Below are positions 36,913 through 41,890 of a stretch of 64,000 nucleotides of DNA, one piece after another. The notes under the pieces were generated by a model. It saw nothing but the letters and a program-made list of their open reading frames with translations, was not told the origin of the DNA and made no database searches. Numbering within the stretch: position 1 is the stretch's first letter; every line of letters starts with the position of its first letter. The stretch comes from Microbulbifer halophilus (GTDB lineage Bacteria; Pseudomonadota; Gammaproteobacteria; Pseudomonadales; Cellvibrionaceae): NCBI RefSeq assembly GCF_026183675.1, contig NZ_JAPIVK010000004.1:54728-118727 (forward strand), read 5' to 3'. The translations under genes were made by a program, and so were the position numbers.

Positions 36913-37755
36913 ATGGGGACGGATCAGGCGCTGCTTTATATTGTTGCCACGCCCATTGGTAACCTGGCCGATATGGTACCGCGAGCCATTGAAGTTCTAC
37001 AATGCGCCGATCTGGTTGCGGCGGAGGACACGCGTCACAGTCAGCGGCTTTTTTCCCATTTCGATATCGATACGCCGCTGATGGCCTACCATGACCACTC
37101 GGACGACAGGCGCACCGGGCAGATACTGCAGAAGCTGGAACAGGGGCAGACGGTGGCATTGATCTCCGATGCCGGTACGCCGTTGATTTCCGACCCGGGC
37201 TATCGGCTGGTGCGCGAGGCCCGCGGCCGCGGCATTCGCGTGGTGCCTATCCCCGGCGCCTGCGCCTTTGTCGCGGCCCTCAGCGCCGCCGGTCTGCCCA
37301 GCGATCGCTTCAGCTTCGAGGGTTTCCTGCCGGCGAAATCCGGCGCGCGCGAAAAGGCGCTGCAGGGGCTCGCGAGCGATGACCGCACCCTGGTTTTCTA
37401 CGAGGCCCCGCACCGGGTGGCCGATACCCTGGATGCAATGGCAGCGGTGTTCGGCGGCGATCGCGAGGCGGTGATCGCCCGGGAAATCTCCAAGGCGTTC
37501 GAGACGGTCCACCTGGCGCCGCTGGAGGAGCTGGCGGCATGGGTGCGCGCCGACCGCAACCAGCAGCGCGGCGAGATAGTGCTGCTGGTGCGCGGCGCCG
37601 ACCGCCGCCCGAGTGCCGAGCTGGACGGCGAGGCGCAGCGGGTCATGAAGCTGCTGATGGCCGAGCTGCCGCCGAAGCGCGCCGCGGCGCTCGCGGCGGA
37701 GATTACCGGCGTGAACAAGAAGGCACTGTACAACTGGAGCCTGGAGCAGAAATAG
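36913..37755 (+). CDS. rsmI: 16S rRNA 2'-O-methyltransferase (C1402)
   Basis: 280 aa from the ATG at 36913; an in-frame ATG at 36898 would add five residues. It methylates the ribose of C1402 of 16S rRNA, acting with RsmH on the same nucleotide. Tetrapyrrole-methylase family marks are LYIVATPIGNLADM, AEDTRHSQRL, ISDAGTPLISDPGYRLV and PIPGACAFVAALSAAGLP. Normally rnpB and mraZ follow directly; here two extra genes intervene. Confidence 0.95.
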   Translation: MGTDQALLYIVATPIGNLADMVPRAIEVLQCADLVAAEDTRHSQRLFSHFDIDTPLMAYHDHSDDRRTGQILQKLEQGQTVALISDAGTPLISDPGYRLVREARGRGIRVVPIPGACAFVAALSAAGLPSDRFSFEGFLPAKSGAREKALQGLASDDRTLVFYEAPHRVADTLDAMAAVFGGDREAVIAREISKAFETVHLAPLEELAAWVRADRNQQRGEIVLLVRGADRRPSAELDGEAQRVMKLLMAELPPKRAAALAAEITGVNKKALYNWSLEQK

Positions 37756-37820
37756 CCGTTCGCGGGGGCGAGCCCCACCCACCACCGACACCCAACCACT
37801 GCCGAACGACTAATCTCCCT

Positions 37821-37980
37821 AGTGGGCCGTGCGTAAAGTTGTGTAACAAAGGAGCCCAGCCAAAACGTCCAGACCAAGGCGGGAAAGCGCTGGAATAGTG
37901 GTTCTGTTTCGAGCTTTCTCAACGCAGAGCTGGGCGCTTTGGCGCAGCGAACTGTTACAGAACTTTGCGCACGGCCCACT
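37821..37980. repeat. 160-bp imperfect palindrome
   Basis: The terminal arms AGTGGGCCGTGCG-AAAGTT-TGTAACA match in inverted orientation over 28 nt with two differences, and end exactly at 37821 and 37980. Inner paired segments continue (GCCCAGC...GCTGGGC; GAAAGC...GCTTTC), so the whole strand could fold into one long hairpin. It lies between rsmI and the ATP-grasp gene. No ORF inside is convincing. It resembles a non-autonomous repetitive element. Confidence 0.75.
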
Positions 37981-38030
37981 AATTGAGGGGCCCGTTTGCG
38001 GGCCGCCAGCAATCGACACGGGAGCCTGGC

Positions 38031-39329
38031 ATGACCGCGCATGTCTTTGTCATCGGCCTGGATCACTTCCACCTCCGGCAGTTGCGGACCATCCGCAACG
38101 CCGGGGACTACCGCTTCCACGGCCTGCTGCCCTACGACATGGTGGTCAATCCCGAGACCTATCCCATCGGCGAGATGATCGAGCAGGGGAGGCGGGAGCT
38201 CTCCGCTGCCGGTGTGCCGGTGGAGGCCGTCATCGGTCACTGGGACTTCCCCACCACGGCGCTGCTGGCCGTTTTCCGGCGGGATCTCCGCCTCCCGGGG
38301 CCGGGTCTCGCCGCCACCCTGATCGCGGATCACAAATACTGGAGCCGCCTGCGCCATAGGGAGGTGATCCCCGAAAGCGTGCCCCGTTTCCAGAGCCTGG
38401 ATCCGTTCGACCCGGAGGCGGAGCACCGGGTCGAGCTGGATTTTCCCTTCTGGATCAAGCCGGTGATCGGTTTCTCCTCGCAGATGGTATACCGGGTGGC
38501 GGACGCCGCGGAGCTGCACCGCGCCCTGTCGGGCATCCGGCGGGGCATCGGCCGCTTTGGCGAGCCCTTTGCCCGGTTGATGGAACTGGCCCGGATACCG
38601 GCGGACATTCCTGCGGAGATAGAGGCCAACCACTGTGTTCTGGAAAAGCCCATCGACGGTTGGCAGTGCACGCAGGAGGGCTATATCCAGCATGGCGAGG
38701 TGGTGGTCTACGGCACCGTGGATTCCGTTCGCGAGGGACCGCTCGATTCCTCCCTGAGCCGCTACGAGTTTCCCTCCCGCCTGCCGGAGGCGGTCAGGGC
38801 GCGGATGGTGGCCATCACCGAGCGGGCCATTCCCGCCCTGGACCTGGACGACACCCCTTTCAATGTCGAGTACTTCTGGGACCGGGACAGCGACCGGATC
38901 GGGCTGCTGGAGGTCAACGCCCGCATCTCCAAATCCCACTGCCCGCTGTTCGCCGACCTGGCCGGCGCCTCCCATCACGAGGTGGCGGTGGATGTTGCCC
39001 TGGGGCGCCGGCCGGATTTCCCCCGCTGGGAGGGCGAGCACCGGGTCGCGATCAAGTTCATGCTGCGCCGCTTCGAGGACGGAATCGTCACCCGGGTTCC
39101 CGGCGAGGCCGAGCTCAGGGCACTGGAGGCGGAGTTCCCCGGTACGCGGATTCAGGTGGAAGTGAAGGTGGGGGACCGCCTGTCCGAACTGCGCGGCCAC
39201 GAGGTCTACAGCTACGAGGTGGCGGTAATTTTCATGGGTGGCCGCGACCACGGGGAACTGGAGCGCCGCTACCGTGCGCTGGTGGAAAAGCTGCCGCTGG
39301 AAATCGACAAAGAGGGACTGGAAGCGTGA
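38031..39329 (+). CDS. ATP-grasp ligase of unknown substrate
   Basis: 432 aa from the ATG at 38031, which has a good GGGAG Shine-Dalgarno. Residues 1-100 look like a Rossmann-type pre-ATP-grasp domain (FVIGLDHFHLRQLRTIRNAG). The ATP-grasp fold then shows Lys102, FWIKPVIGFSS (Lys143), VLEKPIDG (Glu205), FNVEYFW (Glu280) and the Mg2+ loop LLEVNARIS (Glu294, Asn296, Arg298). Such enzymes join a carboxylate to an amine or thiol through an acyl phosphate. I cannot assign the substrate. Its stop overlaps the GTG start of the next gene, so the two are coupled. The pair interrupts the conserved rsmI-rnpB-mraZ order. Confidence 0.8.
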   Translation: MTAHVFVIGLDHFHLRQLRTIRNAGDYRFHGLLPYDMVVNPETYPIGEMIEQGRRELSAAGVPVEAVIGHWDFPTTALLAVFRRDLRLPGPGLAATLIADHKYWSRLRHREVIPESVPRFQSLDPFDPEAEHRVELDFPFWIKPVIGFSSQMVYRVADAAELHRALSGIRRGIGRFGEPFARLMELARIPADIPAEIEANHCVLEKPIDGWQCTQEGYIQHGEVVVYGTVDSVREGPLDSSLSRYEFPSRLPEAVRARMVAITERAIPALDLDDTPFNVEYFWDRDSDRIGLLEVNARISKSHCPLFADLAGASHHEVAVDVALGRRPDFPRWEGEHRVAIKFMLRRFEDGIVTRVPGEAELRALEAEFPGTRIQVEVKVGDRLSELRGHEVYSYEVAVIFMGGRDHGELERRYRALVEKLPLEIDKEGLEA

Positions 39330-41350
39330 AGATCATCGACCCCCTGCCGCAACCGCTCCGCGAGATCGAGTACATCCAGATCCCGATAAGCGACGGCACC
39401 CGGCTGGCCGCGCGGATCTGGATGCCGGAGAACGCCGAGGCCGAACCGGTGCCCGCCATCCTTGAGTACATTCCCTACCGCCGGCGGGACGGCACCCGCA
39501 GCCGGGACGACATCATGCACGCCTGGTTTGCCGCCCGTGGCTACGCCTGTGTGCGGGTGGATATCCGCGGCAGCGGCGACTCCGAGGGCGTGCTGGAGGA
39601 CGAATACCTGCAGCGGGAGCTCGACGACGGCCTGGAAATCATACGCTGGATCGCCGAACAGCCCTGGTGCAATGGCAGGGTGGGCATGATCGGTATCTCC
39701 TGGGGCGGCTTCAACGGCCTGCAGATCGCCGCGCTCAGGCCCCCGGAACTCAAGGCCGTGGTCAGCGTGGCCTCCACCGACGACCGCTACGCGGACGACG
39801 TCCACCATATGGGCGGCTGCCTGCTGGGGGACAACCTGTCCTGGGCCTCCACCATGTTCGCCTGCAACGCCCTGCCGCCGGATCCGGAGATCGTCGGCGA
39901 GCAGTGGCGCGACCTGTGGTTCCAGCGCCTGCGCGGCAGCGGCCTGTGGCTGGAGAAGTGGCTGCGCCACCAGCGCCGGGACGACTACTGGAAGCACGGC
40001 TCGGTCGGTGAGGACTGGGATGCCATCCGGTGCCCGGTCATGGCCGTGTCCGGCTGGGCGGACGGCTATACCAACGCCGTCTTCCGGCTGCTGGCCAACC
40101 TGCGGGTGCCTCGCCTGGGGCTGGTGGGGCCCTGGAGCCACAAGTATCCCCACCAGGGCGTGCCGGGCCCCGCCATCGGCTTCCTGCAGGAGTGTCTGCG
40201 CTGGTGGGACAAATGGCTGAAGGGCCGCGAGACCGGCATCATGGAGGAGCCCATGCTGCGGGCCTGGATGCAGGATCACCAGCCCCCCACCACCTATTAC
40301 GAGCAGCGCCCCGGCCGCTGGGTGGGCGAGCCCGACTGGCCCTCGCCCAATATCCGCGAGCGCCCGCTGATACTGGCCAGCCCCGGCACCCTGGAGTGGC
40401 CCCACACCGAGGTGGACGAGGCGATGATGACCATCCAATCGCCGCTTTCCGTGGGCCTCTTCGCCGGCAAGTGGTGCTCCTACGCCGCCACCCCGGACCT
40501 GCCCCACGACCAGCGCGAGGAAGACGGCGGTGCCCTGGTGTTCGACTCTGCCAGACTGACAAAGCCCCTGGAGATCCTCGGCGCCGCGCGGCTGGAACTG
40601 ACGCTGGCCGCGGATCGCCCGGTGGCGATGCTGGCCGTGCGCCTTTCCGATGTGGCCCCCGACGACAAGGTGACCCGGGTGACCTACGGCCTGCTCAACC
40701 TCACCCACCGCGATGGCTCGGAAAATCCGCGACCGCTGGAGCCGGGCAGGCGCTACCGTGTGCGGCTGCACCTCAACGATATCGGCCATGCCTTCCCCGT
40801 GGGCAACCGACTGCGGCTGTCGATCTCCACCTCCTATTTCCCCCTGGCCTGGCCGGCCCCGGAGCCGGTGCGGCTGACCATCTTCACCGGTGCCAGCCGG
40901 TTGCTGCTGCCCGAGCGCCCGCGACGGGATACCGAGGATGAGGCCATCGCTTTCCCGCCGCCGGAGGGGGCACGGCCCGCGGCGGTGCGGATGGTTCGCG
41001 AGGGACAGCACAAATGGCGCGTGATCCGGGACCTGGAGACGGATATCTCCACCCTGGAAGTGATCAACGACGACGGCATCGTCCATATCGAGCCGGTGAA
41101 CCTGCACATGCAGCGAAAGACGCTGGAGTGGTACAGCTACCGGGGAGACGACTACACCTCGCCGGAGGGCGAGACACTGTGGGAGTGGGGCTTTCGCCGG
41201 GGTGATTGGAATATCTACACGGTGACCCGCACGGTGCTCGATTCCACGCCCTCGCATTTCCGTATTCACGCCGAACTGGATGCCTACGAGGGCAGGAAGC
41301 GCGTCTACTCCGACAACTGGGACGTGGAAATACCCCGCGACCTGATCTGA
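39326..41350 (+). CDS. CocE/NonD-family alpha/beta hydrolase (X-Pro dipeptidyl-peptidase type)
   Basis: 674 aa starting with GTG at 39326 inside the ATP-grasp stop (GTGA); GAGGG lies upstream. An in-frame ATG at 38660 would run through the ATP-grasp gene and is rejected. The catalytic serine is Ser125 in GISWGGF, with Asp246 (SGWADGY) and His272 (PWSHK) completing the triad. The jelly-roll domain typical of CocE/PepX follows (about 350-530). Then come about 110 extra residues with a Trp-rich stretch (LWEWGFRRGDWNIY), longer than a minimal member. There is no signal peptide. Family members cleave esters, acyl-amides or X-Pro peptides. Confidence 0.85.
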   Translation: MKIIDPLPQPLREIEYIQIPISDGTRLAARIWMPENAEAEPVPAILEYIPYRRRDGTRSRDDIMHAWFAARGYACVRVDIRGSGDSEGVLEDEYLQRELDDGLEIIRWIAEQPWCNGRVGMIGISWGGFNGLQIAALRPPELKAVVSVASTDDRYADDVHHMGGCLLGDNLSWASTMFACNALPPDPEIVGEQWRDLWFQRLRGSGLWLEKWLRHQRRDDYWKHGSVGEDWDAIRCPVMAVSGWADGYTNAVFRLLANLRVPRLGLVGPWSHKYPHQGVPGPAIGFLQECLRWWDKWLKGRETGIMEEPMLRAWMQDHQPPTTYYEQRPGRWVGEPDWPSPNIRERPLILASPGTLEWPHTEVDEAMMTIQSPLSVGLFAGKWCSYAATPDLPHDQREEDGGALVFDSARLTKPLEILGAARLELTLAADRPVAMLAVRLSDVAPDDKVTRVTYGLLNLTHRDGSENPRPLEPGRRYRVRLHLNDIGHAFPVGNRLRLSISTSYFPLAWPAPEPVRLTIFTGASRLLLPERPRRDTEDEAIAFPPPEGARPAAVRMVREGQHKWRVIRDLETDISTLEVINDDGIVHIEPVNLHMQRKTLEWYSYRGDDYTSPEGETLWEWGFRRGDWNIYTVTRTVLDSTPSHFRIHAELDAYEGRKRVYSDNWDVEIPRDLI

Positions 41351-41429
41351 GAGTGCCCGACCGCGAGCTGGCCACTAACTGCCAAATACTCCTTGCCTTC
41401 CCCGGCCCGGCCAATTAATCTCCGCCGCC

Positions 41430-41794
<365 letters not shown>

Positions 41795-41890
41795 CGACAG
41801 ATTTTCCCCGTCGGTTTGACGACCGGCGCAGGTTGGAGTGAGTGCAGCGAAGTCCAACAAGGGGGCTGGGGAACCACCGGGCCTTCCGGT

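Follow-up and report, generated by a model that had tools for sequence, protein, structure and literature searches.

An overlapping ATP-grasp ligase and CocE/NonD hydrolase gene pair in Microbulbifer halophilus, a candidate module for making and recycling a peptide-like amide

Introduction

Two overlapping genes of Microbulbifer halophilus, lying in a stretch of 64,000 nucleotides (NCBI RefSeq assembly GCF_026183675.1, contig NZ_JAPIVK010000004.1, positions 54,728 to 118,727 of the forward strand; this whole stretch is called the window, and positions follow its own numbering), encode a predicted ATP-grasp amide ligase, here called open reading frame 1 (ORF1), and a hydrolase of the CocE/NonD (peptidase S15) type, ORF2. 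Adjacency of ORF1 and ORF2 recurs in unrelated lineages. A preliminary description of this DNA had suggested that the two enzymes make and release, or make and recycle, one small molecule, such as a dipeptide-like osmolyte or a storage amide. Here, we consider it about an even chance that, taken as a whole, the pair is a make-and-recycle module for a small peptide-like amide that serves as an osmolyte, a nitrogen store or both.

An outline of the proposed process is as follows: ORF1 would convert a small carboxylic acid (probably an amino acid or amino-acid derivative) into an acyl phosphate at the expense of ATP and would then couple it to an amine, so that a small peptide-like amide arises in the cytoplasm. 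As a serine hydrolase of the S15/CocE type, ORF2 would cut this amide or a close derivative of it and so return the building blocks. For the usual hosts, which inhabit saline waters, brines and soda lakes, the most likely use of the amide would be as a compatible solute, as a nitrogen reserve or as both. That both enzymes may act on one molecule is suggested by the linkage of their genes, and the osmolyte or storage role by the distribution of the pair and by the gene contexts in which it is found.

The Predicted Ligase

Both genes are complete, intact reading frames in the window. The GTG start codon of ORF2 sits within the stop of ORF1, which bears out the GTGA junction that had been described. 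The genes and the landmarks of ORF1 are as follows.

38031..39329, + strand: ORF1, predicted ATP-grasp amide ligase with an L-amino-acid-ligase fold (432 aa; ATG at 38031, stop at 39327-39329)
39326..41350, + strand: ORF2, CocE/NonD (peptidase S15) hydrolase with an extra C-terminal domain (674 aa; GTG at 39326, stop at 41348-41350)
39326..39329, + strand: GTGA overlap of the ORF1 stop with the ORF2 start
38457..38459, + strand: K143 of ORF1, the lysine in FPFWIKP, invariant in 83 sequences
38910..38924, + strand: E294-x-N296-x-R298, metal loop of ORF1, the three residues invariant in 83 sequences

ORF1 matches the Pfam family ATP-grasp_4 with 46.3 bits (cut-off 27) and CPSase_L_D2 barely above its cut-off. 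The preliminary description had allowed for ORF1 falling inside a characterised family; this did not occur, no NCBIfam model reaching its own cut-off on the protein (nine hits at E up to 1). K143, E280, E294, N296 and R298 are all invariant across the 83 sequences; we take the roles of these residues to be those known from ATP-grasp enzymes. An AlphaFold2 model of ORF1 (mean pLDDT 94.9, pTM 0.92) was compared with the Protein Data Bank (PDB) by realigning 999 chains ranked by Foldseek. The top match was the L-amino acid ligase BL00235 (3vot_A; Z 32.1, root-mean-square deviation 3.3, 387 residues, 18% identity), followed by YwfE/BacD (Z 28.8), enzymes of the PurK/PurT types (27-28) and RizA (26.5). 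By sequence, membership of this family is less clear: phmmer gives E 1.6e-5 to 3vot, and a profile of the 83 sequences favours other enzymes (see below). The L-amino acid ligases BL00235, BacD/YwfE and RizA are thus like ORF1 in their full-length ATP-grasp fold, lysine and metal-loop residues; they differ in overall sequence (14-18% identity), and the metal loop reads E-V-G in BL00235 and E-V-N in ORF1. This full-length match strengthens the amide-forming reading, and the modelled fold and the residues together make it likely that ORF1 joins small molecules by an amide (peptide) bond. To our knowledge, L-amino acid ligases have no hydrolase partner.

The Hydrolase

ORF2 matches Peptidase_S15 (242.6 bits) and PepX_C (150.6 bits) in Pfam and far exceeds the cut-off of the CocE_NonD model TIGR00976 (240.4 bits versus 66.3). 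Its parts are listed below.

39392..40147, + strand: S15 catalytic domain, residues 23-274 (Pfam PF02129)
39698..39700, + strand: Ser125 nucleophile (GISWGG), invariant in 60/60 and aligned with the serine motif of CocE
39779..39805, + strand: acidic lid motif DDRYADDVH, residues 152-160, a signature of the ORF2 hydrolase clade
40061..40063, + strand: Asp246 of the triad (GWADG), invariant in 60/60
40139..40141, + strand: His272 of the triad (GPWSHKYPH), invariant in 60/60
40235..40897, + strand: PepX_C jelly-roll domain, residues 304-524 (Pfam PF08530)
40985..41347, + strand: extra beta-rich C-terminal domain, about residues 554-674, lying past the CocE matches, with conserved residues and modelled strands

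The Ser-Asp-His triad, the jelly-roll domain and the additional C-terminal residues noticed earlier are therefore all confirmed. Tyr51 is invariant in 60/60 sequences like Ser125, Asp246 and His272, and an ORF2 tyrosine aligns with a tyrosine of CocE. The model of ORF2 (pLDDT 86.9, pTM 0.89; residues 153-165 and 383-395 below 50) is matched best by cocaine esterase CocE (Z 26.9 over 483 residues), then by a Staphylococcus CocE/NonD protein (25.9), PaL (25.0) and alpha-amino acid ester hydrolase (about 24); X-Pro dipeptidyl aminopeptidase is also among the matches (Z 22.5 and 20.1). From this predicted fold and these residues, ORF2 likely hydrolyses an amide or an ester.

ORF2 resembles the CocE/NonD and S15 hydrolases (cocaine esterase, alpha-amino acid ester hydrolase, PepX) in its triad, PepX_C domain and TIGR00976 match. 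Unlike them, it has a clade-specific acidic lid, an added C-terminal beta domain and, frequently, an ATP-grasp partner. Six residues of the lid (D152, D153, R154, D157, D158 and H160) are invariant in 60/60, and the motif is not present in the CocE alignment. From this conservation, the substrate may be cationic or carry an amino group, and the lid may bind a positively charged group; the model is of low confidence at that spot. The matches to CocE structures end near residue 535, residues 554-670 being modelled as further strands, and the C-terminal part is retained in the eight distant relatives aligned.

Linkage and Spread of the Two Genes

In a collection of named genomes, 422 relatives of ORF1 were confirmed, and the counts given here rest on the best 80 of them. 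ORF2 lies within 400 bases in 60 of these 80 loci, the ligase coming first on one strand in 58 and the order being reversed in two; in three further loci it lies further off, and two loci are cut by a contig end. At L217 (9874-12448; genome G294), a second, broken copy of hydrolase and ligase lies beside a reverse-order pair.

A class sample of 369 genomes (ORF1 at E up to 1e-20, ORF2 at E up to 1e-60) and a phylum sample of 398 genomes, with G000 and G119 belonging to both, were also examined. In the class sample, ORF1 is matched in 20 genomes and ORF2 in 31; the two are adjacent in 13 (one divergent, two hydrolase-first) and unlinked in two (G168 and G283), and ORF1 occurs alone in five. Hits to ORF2 above 1000 bits occur in 16 genomes, 15 of which also have ORF1 (G249 is the exception), and none of the 15 genomes with only weaker ORF2 hits has ORF1 at E up to 1e-20. 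In the phylum sample, ten of the 11 genomes matching ORF1 have ORF2 adjacent, and the eleventh carries a 28% relative. The preliminary description had asked how often the homologues are adjacent and had named unlinked homologues as grounds for giving up a functional pair; because they are mostly linked (60/80, and 10/11 in the phylum sample), this objection fails. The pairwise distances of the two proteins, compared over 55 pairs (the window and 54 loci, six of the 60 adjacent loci being dropped for a cut hydrolase), correlate with r 0.885, the highest of 2000 permutations reaching 0.19; this comparison carries no control for the species tree.

Carriers of the pair belong to Pseudomonadota and Thermodesulfobacteriota, with a few further genomes assigned to other phyla. 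Among plasmids, ORF1 has 11 matching records, all below 60% identity and the best at 33% (Paraburkholderia and Sphingobium), under the annotation "ATP-grasp domain-containing protein". In a tree of 93 ORF1 rows, in which lone means no ORF2 within 400 bases, many lone genes form clades of their own. The largest starred lone clade, of 12 rows, holds Aquisalimonas, Nitrococcus, Halorhodospira, Wenzhouxiangella, a copy on contig 28 of the window genome itself and others; in three of its rows ORF2 stands at a distance of 2-5 kb, and another runs into a contig end. The row L046_246 is scored as lone in this tree because a second ATP-grasp gene stands between ligase and hydrolase. The row L252_P1plain was disregarded (wrong frame, six stops, an end branch of about 10), and the drawn root falls on it.

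No third gene recurs beside most pairs, as judged from the neighbours of part of the loci, which were read by eye; automatic clustering of neighbours was dominated by shadow frames and served as a guide only. Among the 80 loci, relatives of the M20 gene of Aquisalimonas are found in eight, of its GNAT gene in six and of its Ddl-like ATP-grasp gene in five. Since the other neighbours vary by lineage in the loci read by eye, the pair looks like a self-contained two-gene module.

Saline Habitats and Ectoine Synthase

About 65 of the 80 best-matching carriers among the 422 are presumably halophilic, marine, saline or soda-lake organisms, as judged from their names and known ecology, with no habitat control. 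Ectoine synthase (PF06339 over its cut-off) is present in 53 of the 369 genomes of the class sample. It is found in nine of the 13 genomes with an adjacent pair and in 44 of the 356 others (one-sided Fisher p 6e-6, the genomes not being independent); among genomes with any ORF1 the count is 9/20 (p 6e-4). The 13 pair genomes span ten families, and in six of these at least one pair genome has ectoine synthase.

A closer connection is seen in one family, f164, where five of the 17 genomes searched encode a fusion of ectoine synthase with an ORF1-like ATP-grasp protein, of about 560-580 residues (L182 11053-12807; also L252, L253, L254 and L255). In the one fusion scanned, the ectoine-synthase domain matches PF06339 with 132.9 bits. 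An ORF1-ORF2 pair stands beside the fusion, convergent with it, in four of the five genomes (G326, G429, G421 and G418), and an M20 gene was called between fusion and pair in G326, G429 and G418. In the fifth, G420, the pair is on another contig and an M20 gene comes after the fusion.

The fusion in G326 directly follows an operon resembling that for an NIS siderophore (IucA/IucC, lysine/ornithine oxygenase, GNAT and decarboxylase genes). The operon raised the question of a siderophore role, which was set aside, siderophore genes being found at none of the other four fusion loci fetched. A wider form of the same idea is a specialised-metabolite module, in which ORF1 would make a dipeptide-like product (a signal, an inhibitor or part of a siderophore), ORF2 would be a tailoring or resistance hydrolase, and salinity would be irrelevant. 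The patchy distribution, the paralogous copies within one genome and the place of the G326 fusion are in keeping with such a module, which the lack of siderophore genes at the other fusion loci and of any recurrent transporter, regulator or third biosynthetic gene in the loci read by eye nevertheless leads us to regard as unlikely.

Contexts Local to Few Lineages

In G429, G421 and G420, also of family f164, genes for cyanophycinase, cyanophycin synthetase and isoaspartyl dipeptidase (cphB-cphA-iadA) lie directly upstream of ORF1-ORF2. Those of G429 pass TIGR02069, TIGR02068 (1119.6 bits) and TIGR01975, and the others match them at 71-83%. Beyond this family, an iadA-like piece (L100) and weak 25-35% matches to cphA are all that was found of these genes beside the pairs in the fetched loci. 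The two enzymes might accordingly be thought of as accessories to cyanophycin or isopeptide metabolism that process the beta-aspartyl dipeptides released from cyanophycin, and the M20 gene after the pair in G429, as well as the iadA-like gene at the end of the L100 locus, whose start is some 5.7 kb away from the pair, would agree with this. We find it a very unlikely explanation, as cphA is not in the window genome and the complete set adjoins the pair in a single family among the fetched loci.

In G319 and G412, both from one family other than f164, transporter genes identified by Pfam as BCCT are closely followed by ORF2 relatives of 44-45% identity. These bear on the possibility that the pair works in one direction, ORF2 maturing or transferring the product of ORF1 rather than degrading it. 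Such an arrangement would suit the tight coupling of the genes (the GTGA overlap and the short gaps) and the likeness of the ORF2 fold to alpha-amino acid ester hydrolases, which are capable of acyl transfer (aminolysis). It is nonetheless quite unlikely in our estimation, for ORF2 relatives without ORF1 adjoin transporters, both the BCCT type and, by eye, an oligopeptide-type ABC transporter (L192, L198 and L200), which fits the breakdown of imported substrates.

In Aquisalimonas and its kin, the ORF1 homologue is accompanied by GNAT, M20 and Ddl-like ATP-grasp genes and by one or two ORF2 genes, and M20 deacylase and GNAT genes adjoin ORF1 homologues in several halophiles. All of these contexts, like the ectoine-synthase fusion and an AgcS neighbour in the window genome (below), concern amino-acid-like or compatible-solute metabolism and hint at a role in it, each being local to a few lineages.

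Some further neighbours were noted. In Halomonas nitroreducens, an aspartokinase gene (TIGR00657 over its cut-off) begins 54 bases past a lone ORF1 homologue (L109 9372-10682). Beside ORF2 relatives at L195 (6418-7374) and L205 (3246-4187) is a gene for a protein of 313-318 aa, in which a stretch resembling the ATP-grasp lysine region, FPVFSKPIYNMRGMG, was seen by eye; Pfam gives no hit for this protein at E up to 0.01. ORF2 relatives at L202 and L206 (G312 and G408) lie beside phosphoenolpyruvate-carboxykinase-like genes, with acetylglutamate-kinase-like and aminotransferase-like genes in addition at L202 (all by eye).

The Pair in Microbulbifer and its Surroundings

Of 48 Microbulbifer genomes, 16 have a match to ORF1 (E up to 0.001), and it is precisely these that also have one to ORF2 (E up to 1e-40). 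The window type, with 76-100% ORF1 identity, is present in six (G000, G023, G025, G035, G046 and G047), each of which also has a second type; in the remaining ten carriers, the main matches are ORF1 relatives of 37-41% only. The window genome has a second pair on contig 24 (36% and 63% identity). Its contig 28 carries a further, solitary ORF1 homologue (44%) next to an AgcS amino-acid symporter gene.

The surroundings of the pair in the window include the following elements.

41429..41800, + strand: rnpB, downstream neighbour, context only (Rfam RF00010, 323.9 bits)
37819..37981, no strand assigned: element resembling a miniature inverted-repeat transposable element (MITE), about 163 bases, with 29-bp terminal inverted repeats whose arms are 93% alike

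In all six window-type genomes the pair begins within about 3.1 kb of rsmI. It had been described as inserted between rsmI and rnpB into a gene order that is otherwise kept. Of the other Microbulbifer rsmI loci, 29 were fetched and 20 of these scanned: rnpB and rsmI are within 1.5 kb of each other in 11 of the 15 loci without a pair there and in one of the five loci with one. The insertion point holds for the window, G023 and G035; in G025 and G047 the pair lies downstream of rnpB. The hydrolase gene of G035 is interrupted by a group II intron (L231 8715-12608; Rfam RF01999 and RF00029) that carries a reverse-transcriptase-like ORF, as seen by eye.

A two-gene module with variable neighbours may bring to mind an anti-phage or toxin-type system. 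This is scarcely credible here: no PADLOC family matches either protein at E up to 0.01, and a defence system was rejected on that account; Pfam shows no toxin-like domain, and the pair stays beside rsmI in all six window-type genomes.

The MITE-like element ends 49 bases ahead of the ORF1 ATG. It gives 54 match rows in its own genome, some copies being counted on both strands, at about 40 separate places, and is absent from the fetched pair loci other than those covering the same place. It is probably unrelated to the function of the pair. One copy lies directly after an ectC gene (G000:C55:16252-16416). A simple scan of 37700-41500 found no sigma-70-type promoter.

Comparison with Known Systems

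The pair resembles in its logic the N-acetylglutaminylglutamine amide (NAGGN) system, in which an ATP-grasp ligase and a peptidase of the M42 type are encoded together and a peptide-like solute is made and recycled. NAGGN occurs as a solute in halophiles (PMC1224877). The resemblance lies in the combination of an ATP-grasp ligase with a hydrolase, each enzyme of the pair belonging to a known superfamily, and the partner differs, being of the S15/CocE type in the pair and of the M42 type in NAGGN. ORF1 itself was rejected as a NAGGN synthetase, TIGR03103 being absent from its nine NCBIfam hits. Genes near ORF1 homologues at L102 and L103 that looked like M42 peptidases by eye gave no match beyond lysyl aminopeptidase and PRK09961 models, which stayed under their cut-offs. 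A carbamoylglutamine amide, a solute reported from Ectothiorhodospira marismortui (PMC1224877), was considered as the product; a literature search for it came back empty.

Cyanophycin metabolism (CphA, CphB and IadA; described in PMC10206079 and PMC12661447) likewise combines amide synthesis by an ATP-grasp enzyme with dedicated hydrolases and is joined to the pair in three genomes; it differs in that ORF1 is not CphA. A word search of the main text of PMC10206079 found no mention of "ATP-grasp" or "CocE", and no such pair appears in the titles or abstract beginnings of the cyanophycin papers found in the open-licence literature. The ectoine synthase EctC is fused to an ORF1 homologue in five genomes, the ORF1 of the window being without such a domain. 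In the open-licence literature, "ectoine synthase" was not found together with "ATP-grasp", nor was ATP-grasp paired with CocE/NonD among the matches listed. The earlier remark that no described pathway with this pair was recognised agrees with the open-licence literature, in which none came up.

Weighing the Make-and-Recycle Reading

The proposal of a make-and-recycle pair on one small molecule is supported in part: the ligase fold strengthens its amide-forming half, and the two enzymes would act in opposite directions on that molecule. As for the osmolyte or storage amide, the co-occurrence and fusion with ectoine synthase, the cyanophycin genes and the BCCT neighbours are circumstantial evidence in its favour.

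Several observations weigh against make-and-recycle for an osmolyte or store. The pair has no known substrate. On the ligase side, when the profile of the 83 ORF1 sequences is run against PDB sequences, BL00235 ranks behind urea amidolyase and carbamoyl phosphate synthetase, on a shared sub-stretch. On the hydrolase side, S15-type enzymes cleave esters too. Linkage is incomplete: for 15 of the 80 relatives of ORF1 the fetched flank lacks ORF2, and the clade of 12 ORF1 rows has no ORF2 within 400 bases. A pair of any type is limited to 16 of the 48 Microbulbifer genomes, and Paraburkholderia fungorum and Sphingobium yanoikuyae, which we take to be non-halophiles, have plasmid-borne ORF1 relatives of about 33% identity. 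A search with PF06339 did not find ectoine synthase in four of the 13 pair genomes, and a Pfam scan detected no ectoine-synthase domain in the window ORF1. The window genome has no cyanophycin synthetase, giving three partial matches, the best at E 4.7e-10 over residues 486-860 of 885. Finally, each of the three contexts (fusion, cyanophycin, BCCT) was seen in a single family, and the BCCT case concerns distant relatives.

A bolder version of the make-and-recycle reading, improbable as it stands, is that the module makes and unmakes an undescribed class of compatible solutes. The ATP-grasp enzyme would replace the acetyl-CoA-dependent EctA and acylate a diamino acid with a free carboxylic acid; the EctC domain of the fusions would then close the ring to produce substituted ectoines, and with the unfused pair the open amide itself would be the solute. 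The CocE-type hydrolase would free the building blocks in response to a drop in salinity or a demand for nitrogen.

Implications

This ligase-hydrolase pair is conserved, comes mostly from habitats that are saline by name and is without an assigned product. If its product is indeed a peptide-like osmolyte or nitrogen store, the pair would represent a new bacterial route for coping with salt, and it would provide an example of an ATP-grasp enzyme coupled to ectoine-type chemistry.

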